From: Acidobacteriota bacterium
GTDB lineage: Bacteria > Acidobacteriota > Terriglobia > Terriglobales > Acidobacteriaceae
DNA: 64,000 nt
NCBI GenBank assembly: GCA_013289795.1
Contig: JABCZH010000011.1
Location: 1-64,000, forward strand
Direction of reading: 5' to 3'
Below are positions 49,810 to 56,388 of this stretch, in pieces. The notes below the pieces were generated by a model. That model had not been told where the DNA came from. It did no database searches and worked only from the letters and a program-made list of their open reading frames with translations. Each line of letters begins with the position of its first letter. Positions within the stretch are counted from its first letter, which is position 1. Both the position numbers and the translations under genes were made by a program.

Positions 49810-52428
49810 GTGATCGGCCAGACCATCTCGCACTACCGCATCGTCGAGAAACTTGGGGGCGGTGGTATGGGCGTGGTTTACCGGGCCGAGGACACCAAAC
49901 TAGGCCGCTTCGTTGCACTCAAGTTTCTACCCGAAGAACTCGCCAAAGATCGCCAGGCTTTGGATCGTTTTCAACGGGAAGCACGCGCCGCGTCGGCGCT
50001 CAACCATCCCAACATTTGCACCATTCACGAGATTGACGAGGAAGACGGCCAGGCTTTCATCGTCATGGAGTTTCTCGAAGGACTAACGCTGAAACACCGT
50101 ATCGCGGGCCGTCCGCTGGACACTGAAACGCTGCTGCACCTGGCGATTGAGATTGCCGACGGCCTGGACGCGGCGCATTCCAAAGGCATCATCCATCGCG
50201 ATATCAAGCCGGCGAACATTTTTGTTACCAAGCGGGGGCAGGCCAAGATACTGGATTTCGGCCTGGCGAAGCTGGCTCCGGGAAACCGTAGCAGTTCGGA
50301 ATCCGGCCTGAACACAGCTACCGAGGGGGCGCTGATGACCACACCCGGCGCAACCGTGGGCACGGTCGCGTACATGTCTCCGGAGCAGGTTCGAGCCGAG
50401 GAACTCGACGTGCGCACTGACTTGTTCGCGTTCGGATCAGTGCTCTACGAAATGGCCACGGGAGGCTTGGCGTTTTCCGGCAGCAGCACCGGTGTAGTTT
50501 CCGAGGCCATTCTGAACCGCACACCGCCGGCGCCCTCGAGTGCGAATCCGGCGCTGCCCCCAAAACTCGAAGAAGTGATTTTCAAGGCGTTCGAGAAGGA
50601 GCGCGAGTTTCGTTACCAGACGGCAGCCGAGCTGCGGGGAGACTTGAAGCGCATCAAGCGTTCTTTAGATACGTCACGCGCCAGCTCCGCCTCCGCCGTC
50701 TCCTTGCGCATGGCAGTAACCCCCGCCGCGGAAGCCGTGATGCCACGAAGCCGAGGCATACCGGTCGCGACCTTGTCGGTTGCTGCCATCGCGCTGGTCG
50801 CCGGCCTTGCCCTTGGCCGGTTCTTGCTGCAACGTCCAGCGCAGTCTTCGCTGCCGGTTTACCATCCGCTGACCTTCCGCCGCGGCATGGTTCACGCGGC
50901 GCGTTTTGCGCCTGACGGAAAAACCATCATCTATAGCGCCGCCTGGGAAGGGAAACCTTTACAGCTGTTCACCACTCGGCCAGAGAGTCCTGAATCGCAC
51001 GAACTGGAACCTGCAGGAGCGGACGTGCTGGCAGTCTCATCTTCAGGCGAAATGGCGCTCTCCCTGGCCAGCCATCCCAAAGCCGGATTCCTCTATTCCG
51101 GCACCCTAGCGCGCGTGCCTCTGGTCGGCGGTGCTCCACGAGAAGTCCTGGAGGGCGCCGAATGGGCCGATTGGGCTCCGGACGGAAGCACTTTGGCGAT
51201 CGTGCGGCAAGAACAAGGGCGGCACCGCCTGGAGTTCCCCCTGGGCAAGGTGCTCTATGAGGCGGACGGATGGATCGGCCACATTCGCATTGCCCCGAAA
51301 GCAGATGTTATCGCCTTCATTGACCATCCCCAATTGGGGGATGACGGCGGCGCTATTACCGTGGTTGATATGGCGGGTAAGAAAACGACGCTTTCGACCG
51401 GTTGGGACAGCGTTCAAGGAGTGGCATGGTCGCCCAGTGGCGACGAGATCTGGTTTACCGCCACCCGCACCGGTGGCGACCGGTCGTTGTACGCCGTCAG
51501 CCTTTCGGGAGCGGTAAGACTGCTGGCACGTGTTCCTGGAGAACTGACACTGCTCGATGTTGGCCGGGATGGGAATGTGCTCCTGACTCGCGGCAACGAT
51601 CGTGCGGGAATGATCGGACTTACTCCGGGCGAGGCCAAGGAGCATGATCTGTCCTGGCTCGATTGGTCGGTGCCCAACGACGTGTCCGCCGACGGCCGCA
51701 CCGTCTTGTTCACGGAATCAGGAGAGGGCGGAGGGCCGAAGTATGCGGTCTACCTGCGCAAGACCGATGGCTCGCCGGCCATTCGCCTCAGCGAAGGAGC
51801 CGGTATGGCGCTATCTCCTGACGGAAAGTGGGCGTTGGCGCGATCGAGCACTACGCCGGCGCCGTTGTTCGTGCTCCCGACGGGTGTCGGCGAGGCCAAG
51901 CCGCTTTCGCATGACGCGATGAACCACCTCTCGGGCAGGTGGCTTCCCGACGGGAAGCGAGTCGTGTTTTCAGGTAACGAGACCGGACACGGATTTCGTC
52001 TCTATGTGGAATCTCCCGAGGAAGGCAAGCCGCGCCCCATCAGCCCGGAAGGTGTGAACCCCTCATTCGTGATCTCTCCCAAAGGCGATTTTGCGGCCGC
52101 CGTCGGTCCGGACCACAAGATGTACCTCTATCCCGTTGCCAGCGGCGAACCTGTACCCGTCTCCGGCGCGGAGCCAGATGAGGCTCCGACGGGCTGGTCC
52201 GGCGATGGCCGATCGCTTTACGTTTTTCGTTTTGGACAGATTCCAGCCAAAGTGTTTGAGCTGGAGTTGGCGACCGGGAAGAGAAAGCTATGGAAAGAAG
52301 TGGTTCCGGCCGACGCCGCCGGAATCGACACTATTCGCGGCGTCGAAATCACCCCCGATGCTAGGGCGTACGTGTACGGCTATATCCGCACTCTCTCTGA
52401 TCTCTACCTCGTCGAAGGCCTGAAATAA
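49810..52428 (+). CDS. Ser/Thr protein kinase with TolB/WD40-like C-terminus
   Basis: 872 residues, GTG start. N-terminal Hanks-type kinase (about 9-280): [13 protein letters not shown] glycine loop, Lys38 (FVALKFL), catalytic HRDIKPAN (Asp131), DFGLAKLAP and [20 protein letters not shown]. One membrane helix at about 310-335 ([20 protein letters not shown]). The extracytoplasmic part is a beta-propeller of PD40/TolB-like repeats ([48 protein letters not shown]). It is a receptor kinase that probably senses an envelope ligand through the propeller. Convergent with the next kinase gene. Confidence 0.93.
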
Positions 52429-52466: not shown

Positions 52467-55226
52467 TCAGGCGGCAGCCGAAAAACAGGATTGAAGGTCA
52501 GCCCAGAATTCAGCCATGGATCCGGGCCGGTCATTTTCCGAGCGGGCAAGCGCACGATTGAAGAATTCCTGCCAGTGCGGCGCACCTTGAATGCGCGAGG
52601 AGACGCGGGGGACACTGCCTGCGAGAATCGCATTCTGGAGAGATGGGAAGTCAGGGCCGAGAAAAGGCGGGACGCCGCATAATGTTTCATAGGCGATCAC
52701 GGAAAGGGCCCATAAGTCCCAGCGAGGGGAAAGTGGCTCCCCGCGCAACTGTTCTGGGGACATATAAGGCAGGCTTCCGACGAACACGCCGGTCAATGTG
52801 CTGCTGGTATCTGGGGAAACTTGGGGAAGGAACTTGGCGATCCCGAAGTCGGTGATCTTTACAATCTCGGCGCTGCCGGCACGAACCAGAAAGATATTTT
52901 CAGGCTTCAGATCGCGATGCACCAGGCCCCTGAGATGGGCCGCCCCGACGCCCGCGCAAATGGCTTCGAAGAGCTGCACCGTGCGTGACGGAGCTAATCT
53001 CTTTTGAGCGCGCAACTCATCCCGAAGAGTGATGCCTTCGAGAAACTCCATCACCAGAAAGGCGCGCTGATTGGGATCCAGGCCAAAGTCGTGGACCGTG
53101 ACGATATTGGGATGCGAGAAACCACCAGCGGCACGGGACTCGCGTCGAAATCGCTCAAACACTTCCTGGTCCGAGAAGAACTCGTCGCGGATCATTTTGA
53201 CCGCCACGGACCTGTCAAGTGAGACGTCGGTGGCGCGATAGACCTTTCCCATGCCACCCTGACCGAGACGCTTTTCCAGGCGGTAACGCTCGACCAAAAG
53301 TCGAGGACTTGCCACCAGACTCAGCGTCCTGCCTTCTACTTCGCAGCGCGTCGTTCCAGTGTCGTAGCACGCGCCGCACTGGGGACACTCCTCAAAGGCC
53401 CGGCCAGAGAGGCTCGCAGGGCCGCGAGAGACAAGAAGCGCAATGGTGCTGGCAACATTTTCCAGTAGCGCCACGTCTTCCCGGCTATAGGGTTCTTCCG
53501 AGAGCTTCATGCCCAGCACGAGCAGAGCTTCGGTGTGGCCTTCGTCCAGAGCCACTGGCACCAGCAGATCAATGCGCGCGTTGTGCAGGAAATCCTTGTC
53601 GACTTGCGGCAATTGCTGCCCGAGCCATCCGGTTTCTGCAAGCAGGATGGGAACGGAGGTATCCAGAGCCCGAACCAGAGGAATCACTTTGTTGGTCGCT
53701 GGCAGATCCGACGCAAGCGCTCCTTCTGGTGAGGCGCTGATCACCCGGTAGAGAGTTTCGCCGGGTCTACGCAGCAGCAGCGCGCAAAACTCAGCGTGAA
53801 GAGCATCCGCAATGCGAGAAACAACCTGAGGAGCGACTTGCTGGATGCTGACGGCGCGGCGAATTTCTTCCACAATCTCGCGGAACAGCCGCTGAGCATC
53901 GTACTTGTCGCGGAAGAACCTGCGATCGAGCCAAGATAGCCAGGACCGACGCCGGAGGTAAGCCACTCCCGTCAGGGCAGCGACGCTTCCATAAAACCAA
54001 ACTCGCCGGTTCAGAACGGTGAAAAGGGGATCGTGGCCGTGGAGCAGCACCAGGTCAGCCGCAAGCAGTCCCGCCATTAGAGGCGGTATAGCCAACAGCA
54101 CCCGGCGCGCCAGAGCATACTGCAGCCCGCGACGGATGATGACACGGACGTCGAAGAGACGGTGCCGCTGGATGGCGTATGCGAAGGAAAGAGGGAAAAC
54201 CAGAAATCCCAAACTGCAAATCAAGTTTCCCGTGGGCGAAGACAGTAGATCGGCGATCGCAGGGCTGAAATCAACCAGAGCGGTACCCAGGACGCGAGGC
54301 AGATAGAACAGCAGACCGATCAGCGTACCCAAAAAGAGGACACGAAATCGGCGCTGCTCGGTGAGCGTTTCGAGCCGCCAGTACCCGACCGGCAGAACCA
54401 GTAATCCCCCCAGCAGGTAGACCAGGCTTTGTACGCCAAACGCGATCAGTACCCAAGGAGGAGCCAGCGATGCCAAATGCCCCGGGTCATAAACCGTGCG
54501 GTCGAAAAGATACAGCGCATAGATGGTGGCAACGGCAGGACCGGCCATAAGTACAACCCAGGCCCAGCGTGCACGAATCAGTCTCCTCGGAAAAAGGCAA
54601 AAAAAAGCGAACAGCAAGGGCGGCCGAAAAGCGGCGCTCACGTATACCAGCATTACTGGCCACTGAAGAAGGAACGGAAGCGAGCGGAGGGAGGATGCCA
54701 TTCCCCACTGAAAGGCCTCAAAAACCGTTGCCATGACCACCAGAACCCAACCGCCGAGCCGTGAAACAAAATCGCGCGGCCGGTGGAAGACAACGAAGAG
54801 ACCGATCACCAAGGTGATTAGTTTGTTCGCCAGAAAAATGATTTCGGAGGCGCGCGAACGAGCACTGTAGTCCCTCCAAATGGTCCCATGGAGGGTCATG
54901 GTCAGGTCGAGACGCCGCCCGTCACGCTCGACACCGATACGAATGGGGCGGTCAGCGACGAAGTTCATGCGATGCGCCAGCCAATCCACCACATTACCGA
55001 TCGGCTGGCCATCCACGGCCACTATGGAATCTCCAACCGCCAGGCCGGCACGGGCTGCCGGCTCTCCGCTTTCCAGGTAGGAAACAACTGCGTGGCCGGA
55101 TTTATCGTCGACATCCATCCCGCCCGGCGCCAGGCCAAAGAGAACGAGGTAGGCAAGATAAAAGTAGCCGACGATGCTGATGACCGCGGCCGCCACCATC
55201 CGCCAGGAATAGGATGTGGATGACAT
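52467..55226 (-). CDS. PDZ / multi-TM / GAF / zinc-ribbon Ser/Thr protein kinase
   Basis: 919 residues with an unusual order: membrane helix at about 12-32; PDZ domain (30-110: SYLESGEPAARAGLAVGDSI, VDGQPIGN); about eight further helices (130-425) ending AIQRHRLFDVRVIIRRGLQY, as in multi-TM sensor histidine kinases; GAF domain (455-600); zinc ribbon Cys614, Cys617, Cys620, Cys628 (CPQCGACYDTGTTRC); C-terminal Hanks kinase (647-905) with RLGQGGMGKVYRATD, VAVKM, HRDLKPEN, DFGIAK and YMSPEQL. All key kinase residues are present. It probably couples an envelope signal to phosphorylation. The kinase module replaces the histidine kinase expected after this kind of sensor. Confidence 0.92.
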   Translation of the reverse strand: MSSTSYSWRMVAAAVISIVGYFYLAYLVLFGLAPGGMDVDDKSGHAVVSYLESGEPAARAGLAVGDSIVAVDGQPIGNVVDWLAHRMNFVADRPIRIGVERDGRRLDLTMTLHGTIWRDYSARSRASEIIFLANKLITLVIGLFVVFHRPRDFVSRLGGWVLVVMATVFEAFQWGMASSLRSLPFLLQWPVMLVYVSAAFRPPLLFAFFCLFPRRLIRARWAWVVLMAGPAVATIYALYLFDRTVYDPGHLASLAPPWVLIAFGVQSLVYLLGGLLVLPVGYWRLETLTEQRRFRVLFLGTLIGLLFYLPRVLGTALVDFSPAIADLLSSPTGNLICSLGFLVFPLSFAYAIQRHRLFDVRVIIRRGLQYALARRVLLAIPPLMAGLLAADLVLLHGHDPLFTVLNRRVWFYGSVAALTGVAYLRRRSWLSWLDRRFFRDKYDAQRLFREIVEEIRRAVSIQQVAPQVVSRIADALHAEFCALLLRRPGETLYRVISASPEGALASDLPATNKVIPLVRALDTSVPILLAETGWLGQQLPQVDKDFLHNARIDLLVPVALDEGHTEALLVLGMKLSEEPYSREDVALLENVASTIALLVSRGPASLSGRAFEECPQCGACYDTGTTRCEVEGRTLSLVASPRLLVERYRLEKRLGQGGMGKVYRATDVSLDRSVAVKMIRDEFFSDQEVFERFRRESRAAGGFSHPNIVTVHDFGLDPNQRAFLVMEFLEGITLRDELRAQKRLAPSRTVQLFEAICAGVGAAHLRGLVHRDLKPENIFLVRAGSAEIVKITDFGIAKFLPQVSPDTSSTLTGVFVGSLPYMSPEQLRGEPLSPRWDLWALSVIAYETLCGVPPFLGPDFPSLQNAILAGSVPRVSSRIQGAPHWQEFFNRALARSENDRPGSMAEFWADLQSCFSAAA

Positions 55227-55335: not shown

Positions 55336-56388
55336 CTATTCCATCGCCGCGTTCGCCCGAATGAACCATCCGGCCTCGGCGCAGTAGAAGGGCCAGGGGA
55401 AATCGGGCGTCACATTCATATACTTCTTCTGTATGGTCGTGATGTACTTGTTTACGCTCGATGTATCTCCGCCAATATACGCCGCGTAGGAGACGACCGC
55501 CCAAGGGAACGGGGTCTGCGAGTTGAATGACAAGTTCGTCCAACCCGGCCAGGCGGCGTTGAAGGCGATATAAGAGCTCTTCGCCTGTTTGCTGGAAGCA
55601 GCCACCACGCCCTGCACGGACGGGTAGAGTTGGGATACCGCATCTGGGTAGAACCTGGACATGTTGGGCGCAGACGACCCTGCATACGGGTAATAGAGCT
55701 TGGTCGACGAAATGTAGAGGACGCTCTGAATGCCGGACTGGATACTCGATGCGTGAGCTTGATACCAGGACGATGCGCTGGTGTCGCGCCATGCCTGAAT
55801 CGCAAGATTTGCAACATCTTCCAACCCGCGATAATCCTCGGAGTTATCCATCAGGTACTCGATGCGGTAATCAGGCTTCGCCAAGACCAAACCGTTGCTC
55901 TGCTGGAGGTTGGTGATAATGTTTCCGGTCACGTTGAGAATGTATTCGCCAACCGTGTTCTGCACGAAGGATTGTGCGCCAGAGTTCCCCGTGTTATACA
56001 GGGCTTCGGCAAGAGTCAGAAAGGTCGCTGCGCTGGAGTCAGCGGAGTCGTAGCTGTTGGTCGAAGTCTCGATGCCGTCGCTATAGCTGTAGTTGTAGAC
56101 CGTCCCGTAGAGGCCGTTGTTGTCAGGCCAATTGACGTGGTCAATGTACCATTGCATCCATGCTTCCACATGTGGGATTTTCGAGCGATCTTTGAGCCAG
56201 CCTATGGCGGCAAGGTTGGCAAAATACGGGCTAATTCCGTTGGCCGAATACAGAATTGCTCCGTCAGGCAACTGCTGCCCTTTCAGCCATGCCGATGTCT
56301 TGGTGATGTCGGAAGAATAGTTTTGGGCACAGACTGGCGTGACCGCAAATCCCACCACCAGGAACAGGGAGAGAACACTCTTAATCAT
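55336..56388 (-). CDS. Secreted protein, possible alpha/alpha-toroid fold
   Basis: 350 residues with a signal peptide (MIKSVLSLFLVVGFAVTPVC, cleaved near AQN). The mature part has repeated helical and aromatic-rich segments: ITKTSAWLKGQQLPDGAILY, NLAAIGWLKDRSKIPHVEAW, SSAATFLTLAEALYNTGN, VANLAIQAWRD, FPWAVVSYAAYIGG. This recalls six-hairpin glycosidase or terpenoid-cyclase-like toroids, but no catalytic signature was recognised. It starts 18 bases after the 3' end of the RNase P RNA gene on the same strand, so it may be read through from rnpB. Confidence 0.7.
   Translation of the reverse strand: MIKSVLSLFLVVGFAVTPVCAQNYSSDITKTSAWLKGQQLPDGAILYSANGISPYFANLAAIGWLKDRSKIPHVEAWMQWYIDHVNWPDNNGLYGTVYNYSYSDGIETSTNSYDSADSSAATFLTLAEALYNTGNSGAQSFVQNTVGEYILNVTGNIITNLQQSNGLVLAKPDYRIEYLMDNSEDYRGLEDVANLAIQAWRDTSASSWYQAHASSIQSGIQSVLYISSTKLYYPYAGSSAPNMSRFYPDAVSQLYPSVQGVVAASSKQAKSSYIAFNAAWPGWTNLSFNSQTPFPWAVVSYAAYIGGDTSSVNKYITTIQKKYMNVTPDFPWPFYCAEAGWFIRANAAME

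Follow-up and report, generated by a model that had tools for sequence, protein, structure and literature searches.

A predicted receptor Ser/Thr kinase of Acidobacteriota and its input module shared with other signalling outputs

The window analyzed here, a stretch of 64,000 nucleotides of contig JABCZH010000011.1 from a member of the Acidobacteriaceae, encodes a 919-residue membrane protein in which a sensor resembling those of two-component systems precedes a Hanks-type Ser/Thr kinase. The locus raises the question of whether this is a genuine receptor, how its input and output came together and what it may perceive. To our knowledge, what triggers a bacterial Ser/Thr kinase has been established in few cases.

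Architecture and distribution of the receptor kinase

Open reading frame analysis, Pfam and helix prediction bore out the order given in the initial annotation, namely PDZ, membrane helices, GAF, four-Cys ribbon and C-terminal kinase (Table 1). The figure of about eight helices given there was slightly low. Hydropathy and the positive-inside rule predicted ten in a 1+7+2 arrangement, one before the PDZ domain, seven after it and a pair before GAF, and the AlphaFold2 model agreed. By the positive-inside rule PDZ is predicted to face the periplasm, with GAF, ribbon and kinase in the cytosol. The AlphaFold2 model, built from a 30-row alignment, has a mean pLDDT of 85 with confident strands in the ribbon block (89-94); its pTM of 0.53 is low, so that the relative placement of the domains is unreliable. 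No PDB structure matched the seven-helix membrane domain, the matches being confined to PDZ; this domain may be the ligand-binding part.

Table 1. Parts of the receptor kinase gene and their positions in the window
Feature	Residues	Position	Strand	Basis
Whole gene, 919-residue membrane receptor Ser/Thr kinase		52467..55226	-	Intact ORF, ATG to stop; purifying selection
TM helix 1	8-30	55137..55205	-	AlphaFold2, hydropathy
PDZ, predicted periplasmic	36-112	54891..55121	-	Pfam 1.9e-8; nearest solved folds DegS/HtrA
Seven-helix membrane domain, TM2-8	~122-353	54168..54863	-	Hydropathy, AlphaFold2
Linker: RHRLFD...RRGLQYALAR segment, TM9-10, DRRFFRxxYD signature	353-445	53892..54170	-	
GAF, terminating in SEEPYSxxD	460-599	53430..53849	-	Pfam 1.4e-6; signature
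Four-Cys ribbon CX2CX2CX7C	611-640	53307..53396	-	Cys codons between 53343 and 53387
Hanks-type (PknB-like) Ser/Thr kinase domain	648-888	52563..53285	-	Pfam 2.3e-46; PDB sequence match; Foldseek

The kinase domain reached 158.8 bits with PF00069 against a curated cut-off of 31.7, and PknB was its best match both in sequence (PDB search, 3.7e-47) and in fold (Foldseek). The catalytic residues K677 and E696 and the motifs HRDLKPEN and DFG are intact; the motifs are kept in 14 aligned homologues, with Lys, Glu and HRDLK invariant. From its sequence, the domain is predicted to be an active PknB-like kinase. It is one of about 30 Ser/Thr kinase domains in this 4.7 Mb genome, most of which lack a ribbon.

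Homologues with the identical order of parts occur at 79%, 71% and 63% overall identity, the first two being the nearest named ones, from Candidatus Sulfotelmatobacter. Because such homologues exist and dN/dS is 0.13-0.15 over the whole gene, the architecture is not a product of chance. Every part is under purifying selection. By values that are approximate, since synonymous change is near saturation (dS ~1), constraint is strongest in the ribbon (dN/dS 0.04-0.08), the values for other parts being ~0.1 (kinase), 0.10 (PDZ) and 0.16-0.18 (membrane part); the comparison with homologue L074 gave 0.13 overall, 0.04 for the ribbon, 0.09 for the kinase, 0.10 for PDZ and 0.16 for the membrane part.

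Full-length homologues are present in other families of the class and of the phylum. Counted as matches reaching the ribbon, with few candidates scored per genome, they are patchy in Acidobacteriota, with lower bounds of at least ~23 of 399 class genomes and at least ~33 of 396 phylum genomes. Among the matches listed in the gene scan, only a SpoIIE form was seen beyond Acidobacteriota (Gemmatimonadota, Eiseniibacteriota), and none of the plasmid-borne copies cover the sensor. No description of a PDZ-membrane-GAF-ribbon-kinase protein was found in the open-licence literature, although older or closed reports may exist. The idea that the architecture is already common and characterized in Acidobacteriota, which the initial annotation had named as what would speak against its view, holds in its first half, as the architecture recurs there; no characterization was found.

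As originally claimed, the order departs from the PknB/PrkC layout. Like PknB, PrkC and StkP, the protein joins a PknB-like kinase to a membrane receptor with an outside sensor (here predicted), but its kinase is C-terminal instead of N-terminal, ten predicted helices replace one, PDZ stands in place of PASTA, and GAF and ribbon lie between membrane and kinase. No PASTA repeats were detected in the Pfam scan of the protein, and NCBIfam PknB_PASTA gave 265 bits against a cut-off of 450. In prokaryotes, GAF is one of the domains most often attached to kinases (PMC2877116), and the cyanobacterial cbSTKIII dual kinases (HstK) likewise pair GAF input with a Hanks kinase, mixing two-component and eukaryotic-type parts (PMC2176072). 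In those proteins, however, the kinase is N-terminal and a histidine kinase C-terminal, neither arrangement being present in the window's protein according to Pfam, and PDZ goes unmentioned in PMC2176072.

No operon or conserved partner genes were seen at the loci examined. Genes near the homologues examined are unrelated, and hence nothing there points to a kinase substrate. In the window, a second Ser/Thr kinase gene (49810-52428, + strand), encoding an N-terminal kinase with PD40 propeller repeats, converges on the receptor kinase gene at a distance of 38 bases; a kinase neighbour is also present at the homologous loci L081 and L053. Upstream lies a gene for a secreted-looking protein (55336-56388, - strand) with no Pfam match above cut-off. 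A promoter and terminator scan found sites no more numerous than in shuffles.

One input on several outputs

Receptor Ser/Thr kinases as a kind are already known; what stands out here is the shared, swappable input. A search of the genome itself returned 41 matching places, mostly kinases alone, and three that match the sensor without a kinase: two PDZ-membrane-GAF-SpoIIE proteins (L009, L010) and one PDZ-membrane-GAF-PAS-HisKA-HATPase protein (L011). In the SpoIIE pair the input is homologous to that of the receptor kinase over its full length and carries both signatures described below, but GAF is followed immediately by the output, a SpoIIE/PP2C phosphatase, with no ribbon. The histidine kinase paralogue (C9:96548-98215) adjoins a response regulator resembling a sigma-54 activator and is the only sensor paralogue with an obvious partner gene. 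Its presence agrees with the initial annotation that a two-component-like input had been joined to a Hanks-type output. The narrower label of a histidine-kinase-type sensor fits in part: the input does occur on one histidine kinase, but its commonest partner is the SpoIIE/PP2C phosphatase.

In an alignment of 68 inputs R439 and Y442 are invariant irrespective of output, and D434, F437, F438 and SEEPYS...D almost so. Most residues invariant between outputs lie in linker and GAF, and the window's protein contains everything that defines the input family: PDZ, 7+2 helices, a linker with the near-invariant DRxFFRxxY and a GAF domain with the equally conserved SEEPYSxxD. By Pfam, the outputs comprise SpoIIE, HisKA with HATPase, Trans_reg_C (L079), and a kinase at the C-terminus or at the N-terminus, the latter in L061 and in a second, cut-off example, L134. 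In L079 (2553-4811, identical to the gene L057), which lies outside this genome, the sensor is followed C-terminally by a winged-helix domain of OmpR type (Trans_reg_C, 4.8e-17), which makes the protein a membrane-bound DNA-binding receptor. The input is a transferable module, shared and exchanged between outputs, which suggests that in these bacteria a single sensor passes back and forth between signalling outputs of opposite effect. One speculative extension, to which we give little weight, is that, in a cell carrying one envelope-sensing module both on a Ser/Thr kinase and on phosphatases of PP2C type, the two kinds of receptor would be matched as writer and eraser: they would perceive related signals and overlap in the phosphosites they act on, and evolution would exchange the membrane half between them.

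Origin of the ribbon-kinase and its joining to the sensor

C614, C617, C620 and C628 are kept in every one of 14 aligned homologues, and the four Cys are present in 46 of 47 sensor kinases selected by the ribbon pattern, a pattern blind to ribbon-less members; one such member (L140, with its remaining parts kept) and the permuted L061 and L134, in which a kinase precedes the sensor and the ribbon is absent, do exist. The motif has a first knuckle CPxCG, a second C-x2-[D/E] and an extra Cys at p+6, and no Pfam ribbon model matched it. In L151, which has no recognizable PDZ, a classic CX2CX10CX2C ribbon stands at the same place. The same CX2CX2CX7C is found near the N-terminus of the soluble kinases L152, L154 and L161, so that a ribbon unique to sensor kinases was rejected; other soluble kinases carry CX2CX10CX2[C/H/D] or no ribbon. 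A ligand swap, in which the Cys at p+17 was lost as that at p+6 was gained, was not supported, as three-Cys ribbons already have Asp at p+17.

The kinase tree comprised 121 rows; like the others it was computed quickly, with moderate support and several long branches. A single group in it (SH-aLRT 88, not starred) takes in all four-Cys kinases of the tree, 46 sensor kinases and three soluble ones, together with one member that lacks the ribbon. Relative to three-Cys ribbons, a Cys was gained at p+6. The ribbon arrived with the kinase, and the two share a common history. The initial view of the ribbon as part of the sensor's input did not stand, given the soluble ribbon-kinases of the same clade and the ribbon-less, permuted L061.

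For linker plus GAF a single kinase-type clade was not rejected (p-AU 0.62), and in the membrane-part tree, chimeras left out, the kinase type falls on one side of a branch with support 83. The chimeras are two loci (L058, L081) in which a SpoIIE-type PDZ and membrane part precede linker, GAF, ribbon and kinase of the kinase type: their membrane helices are 57-64% identical to the SpoIIE type and ~20% to other kinase-type proteins, and their GAF domain is up to 81% identical to the kinase type. This composition puts the exchange point near residue 352, at the start of the linker. The kinase of L061 groups with ordinary soluble or PD40-type kinases, apart from the sensor kinases, which indicates a separate, independent fusion. 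By the kinase, linker plus GAF and membrane trees, the three clades of sensor kinases do not require a kinase fusion each. The whole-sensor tree alone would imply more changes, for part of which chimeras and long branches account. The phylogeny of the separate parts, proposed at the outset as a way to date the fusion, fits one old joining of a soluble ribbon-kinase, with its added Cys, to a GAF-bearing sensor; we favour this history, which is not proven, followed by swaps that gave two loci combining a membrane half of phosphatase type with a kinase-type GAF-ribbon-kinase half, one DNA-binding tail and two N-terminal kinases.

Proposed mechanism and alternatives

We propose, with a probability of roughly 0.6, that the protein is an orphan transmembrane receptor Ser/Thr kinase in which envelope state is read by PDZ and membrane domain and relayed through linker and GAF to the kinase. 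What the periplasmic PDZ and the seven-helix domain most likely respond to would be C-termini or peptides that envelope proteins expose. The signal would cross the conserved two-helix linker to the cytosolic GAF domain, which may contribute a small-molecule input; GAF and ribbon together would set the activity of the PknB-like kinase, which would phosphorylate cytosolic targets. Ligand, direction of signalling and targets, as well as dimerization and a metal in the ribbon, are what we infer. An envelope-protein end is proposed as the signal because the closest solved folds of the PDZ domain are those of DegS and HtrA, and the PDZ domain of DegS recognizes peptides from misfolded outer-membrane proteins (PMC7593790). 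DegS is likewise envelope-anchored with a periplasmic PDZ of the same fold class, but is a protease, whereas here PDZ is on a kinase. Gly36-hydrophobic in the carboxylate loop is conserved across outputs; the first residue of this loop is G in the window's protein instead of the usual L, which counts against the envelope-peptide reading.

Thiol oxidation or metal loss at the ribbon might instead toggle the kinase directly, with envelope sensing secondary; metal or redox sensing at the ribbon, put forward as a possibility in the initial annotation, found no direct support. The four Cys kept in nearly all ribbon-bearing sensor kinases, the strongest constraint of all parts and the Cys gained at p+6 favour such a metal or redox switch, as does PknG of actinobacteria, in which a Cys-rich metal-type domain also immediately precedes the kinase, the adjacent rubredoxin lowers catalysis and damage to the metal center alters activity (PMC8546545). 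By analogy, the ribbon would occupy the place of this catalysis-restraining rubredoxin. PknG differs, however, in its two CxxCG motifs, TPR and lack of a membrane sensor; the window's protein has one CX2CGxC plus a single Cys, and its Pfam scan gave neither PknG_rubred nor TPR, with only one CX2CX2CX7C. Since a structural zinc site would also account for this conservation, and some soluble kinases that lack the sensor have the ribbon whereas L140 is missing it, we consider a direct switch improbable.

Somewhat less probable still is that GAF is the main sensor, of a small cytosolic ligand, with PDZ and membrane domain mainly positioning the protein at the envelope or at partners. Linker and GAF do accompany the kinase in exchanges of the membrane half, and hold most of the residues invariant between outputs, but the membrane half is itself under purifying selection and kept in nearly all members, and PDZ-less cases such as L151 are rare. 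We give hardly any credence to a kinase in name only, a vestigial domain on a membrane scaffold or PDZ-dependent chaperone: the lack of nearby partner genes would suit it, but the conserved catalytic motifs, the low kinase dN/dS and the strong match to active PknB argue against it.

The family offers natural swap experiments, in which one input is coupled to four outputs (Ser/Thr kinase, phosphatase, histidine kinase, DNA-binding domain), plus two natural chimeras. These allow direct tests of how a membrane sensor can drive a Hanks kinase and of a possible common signal for kinase and phosphatase receptors, and they suggest a route from a soluble ribbon-kinase to a receptor.
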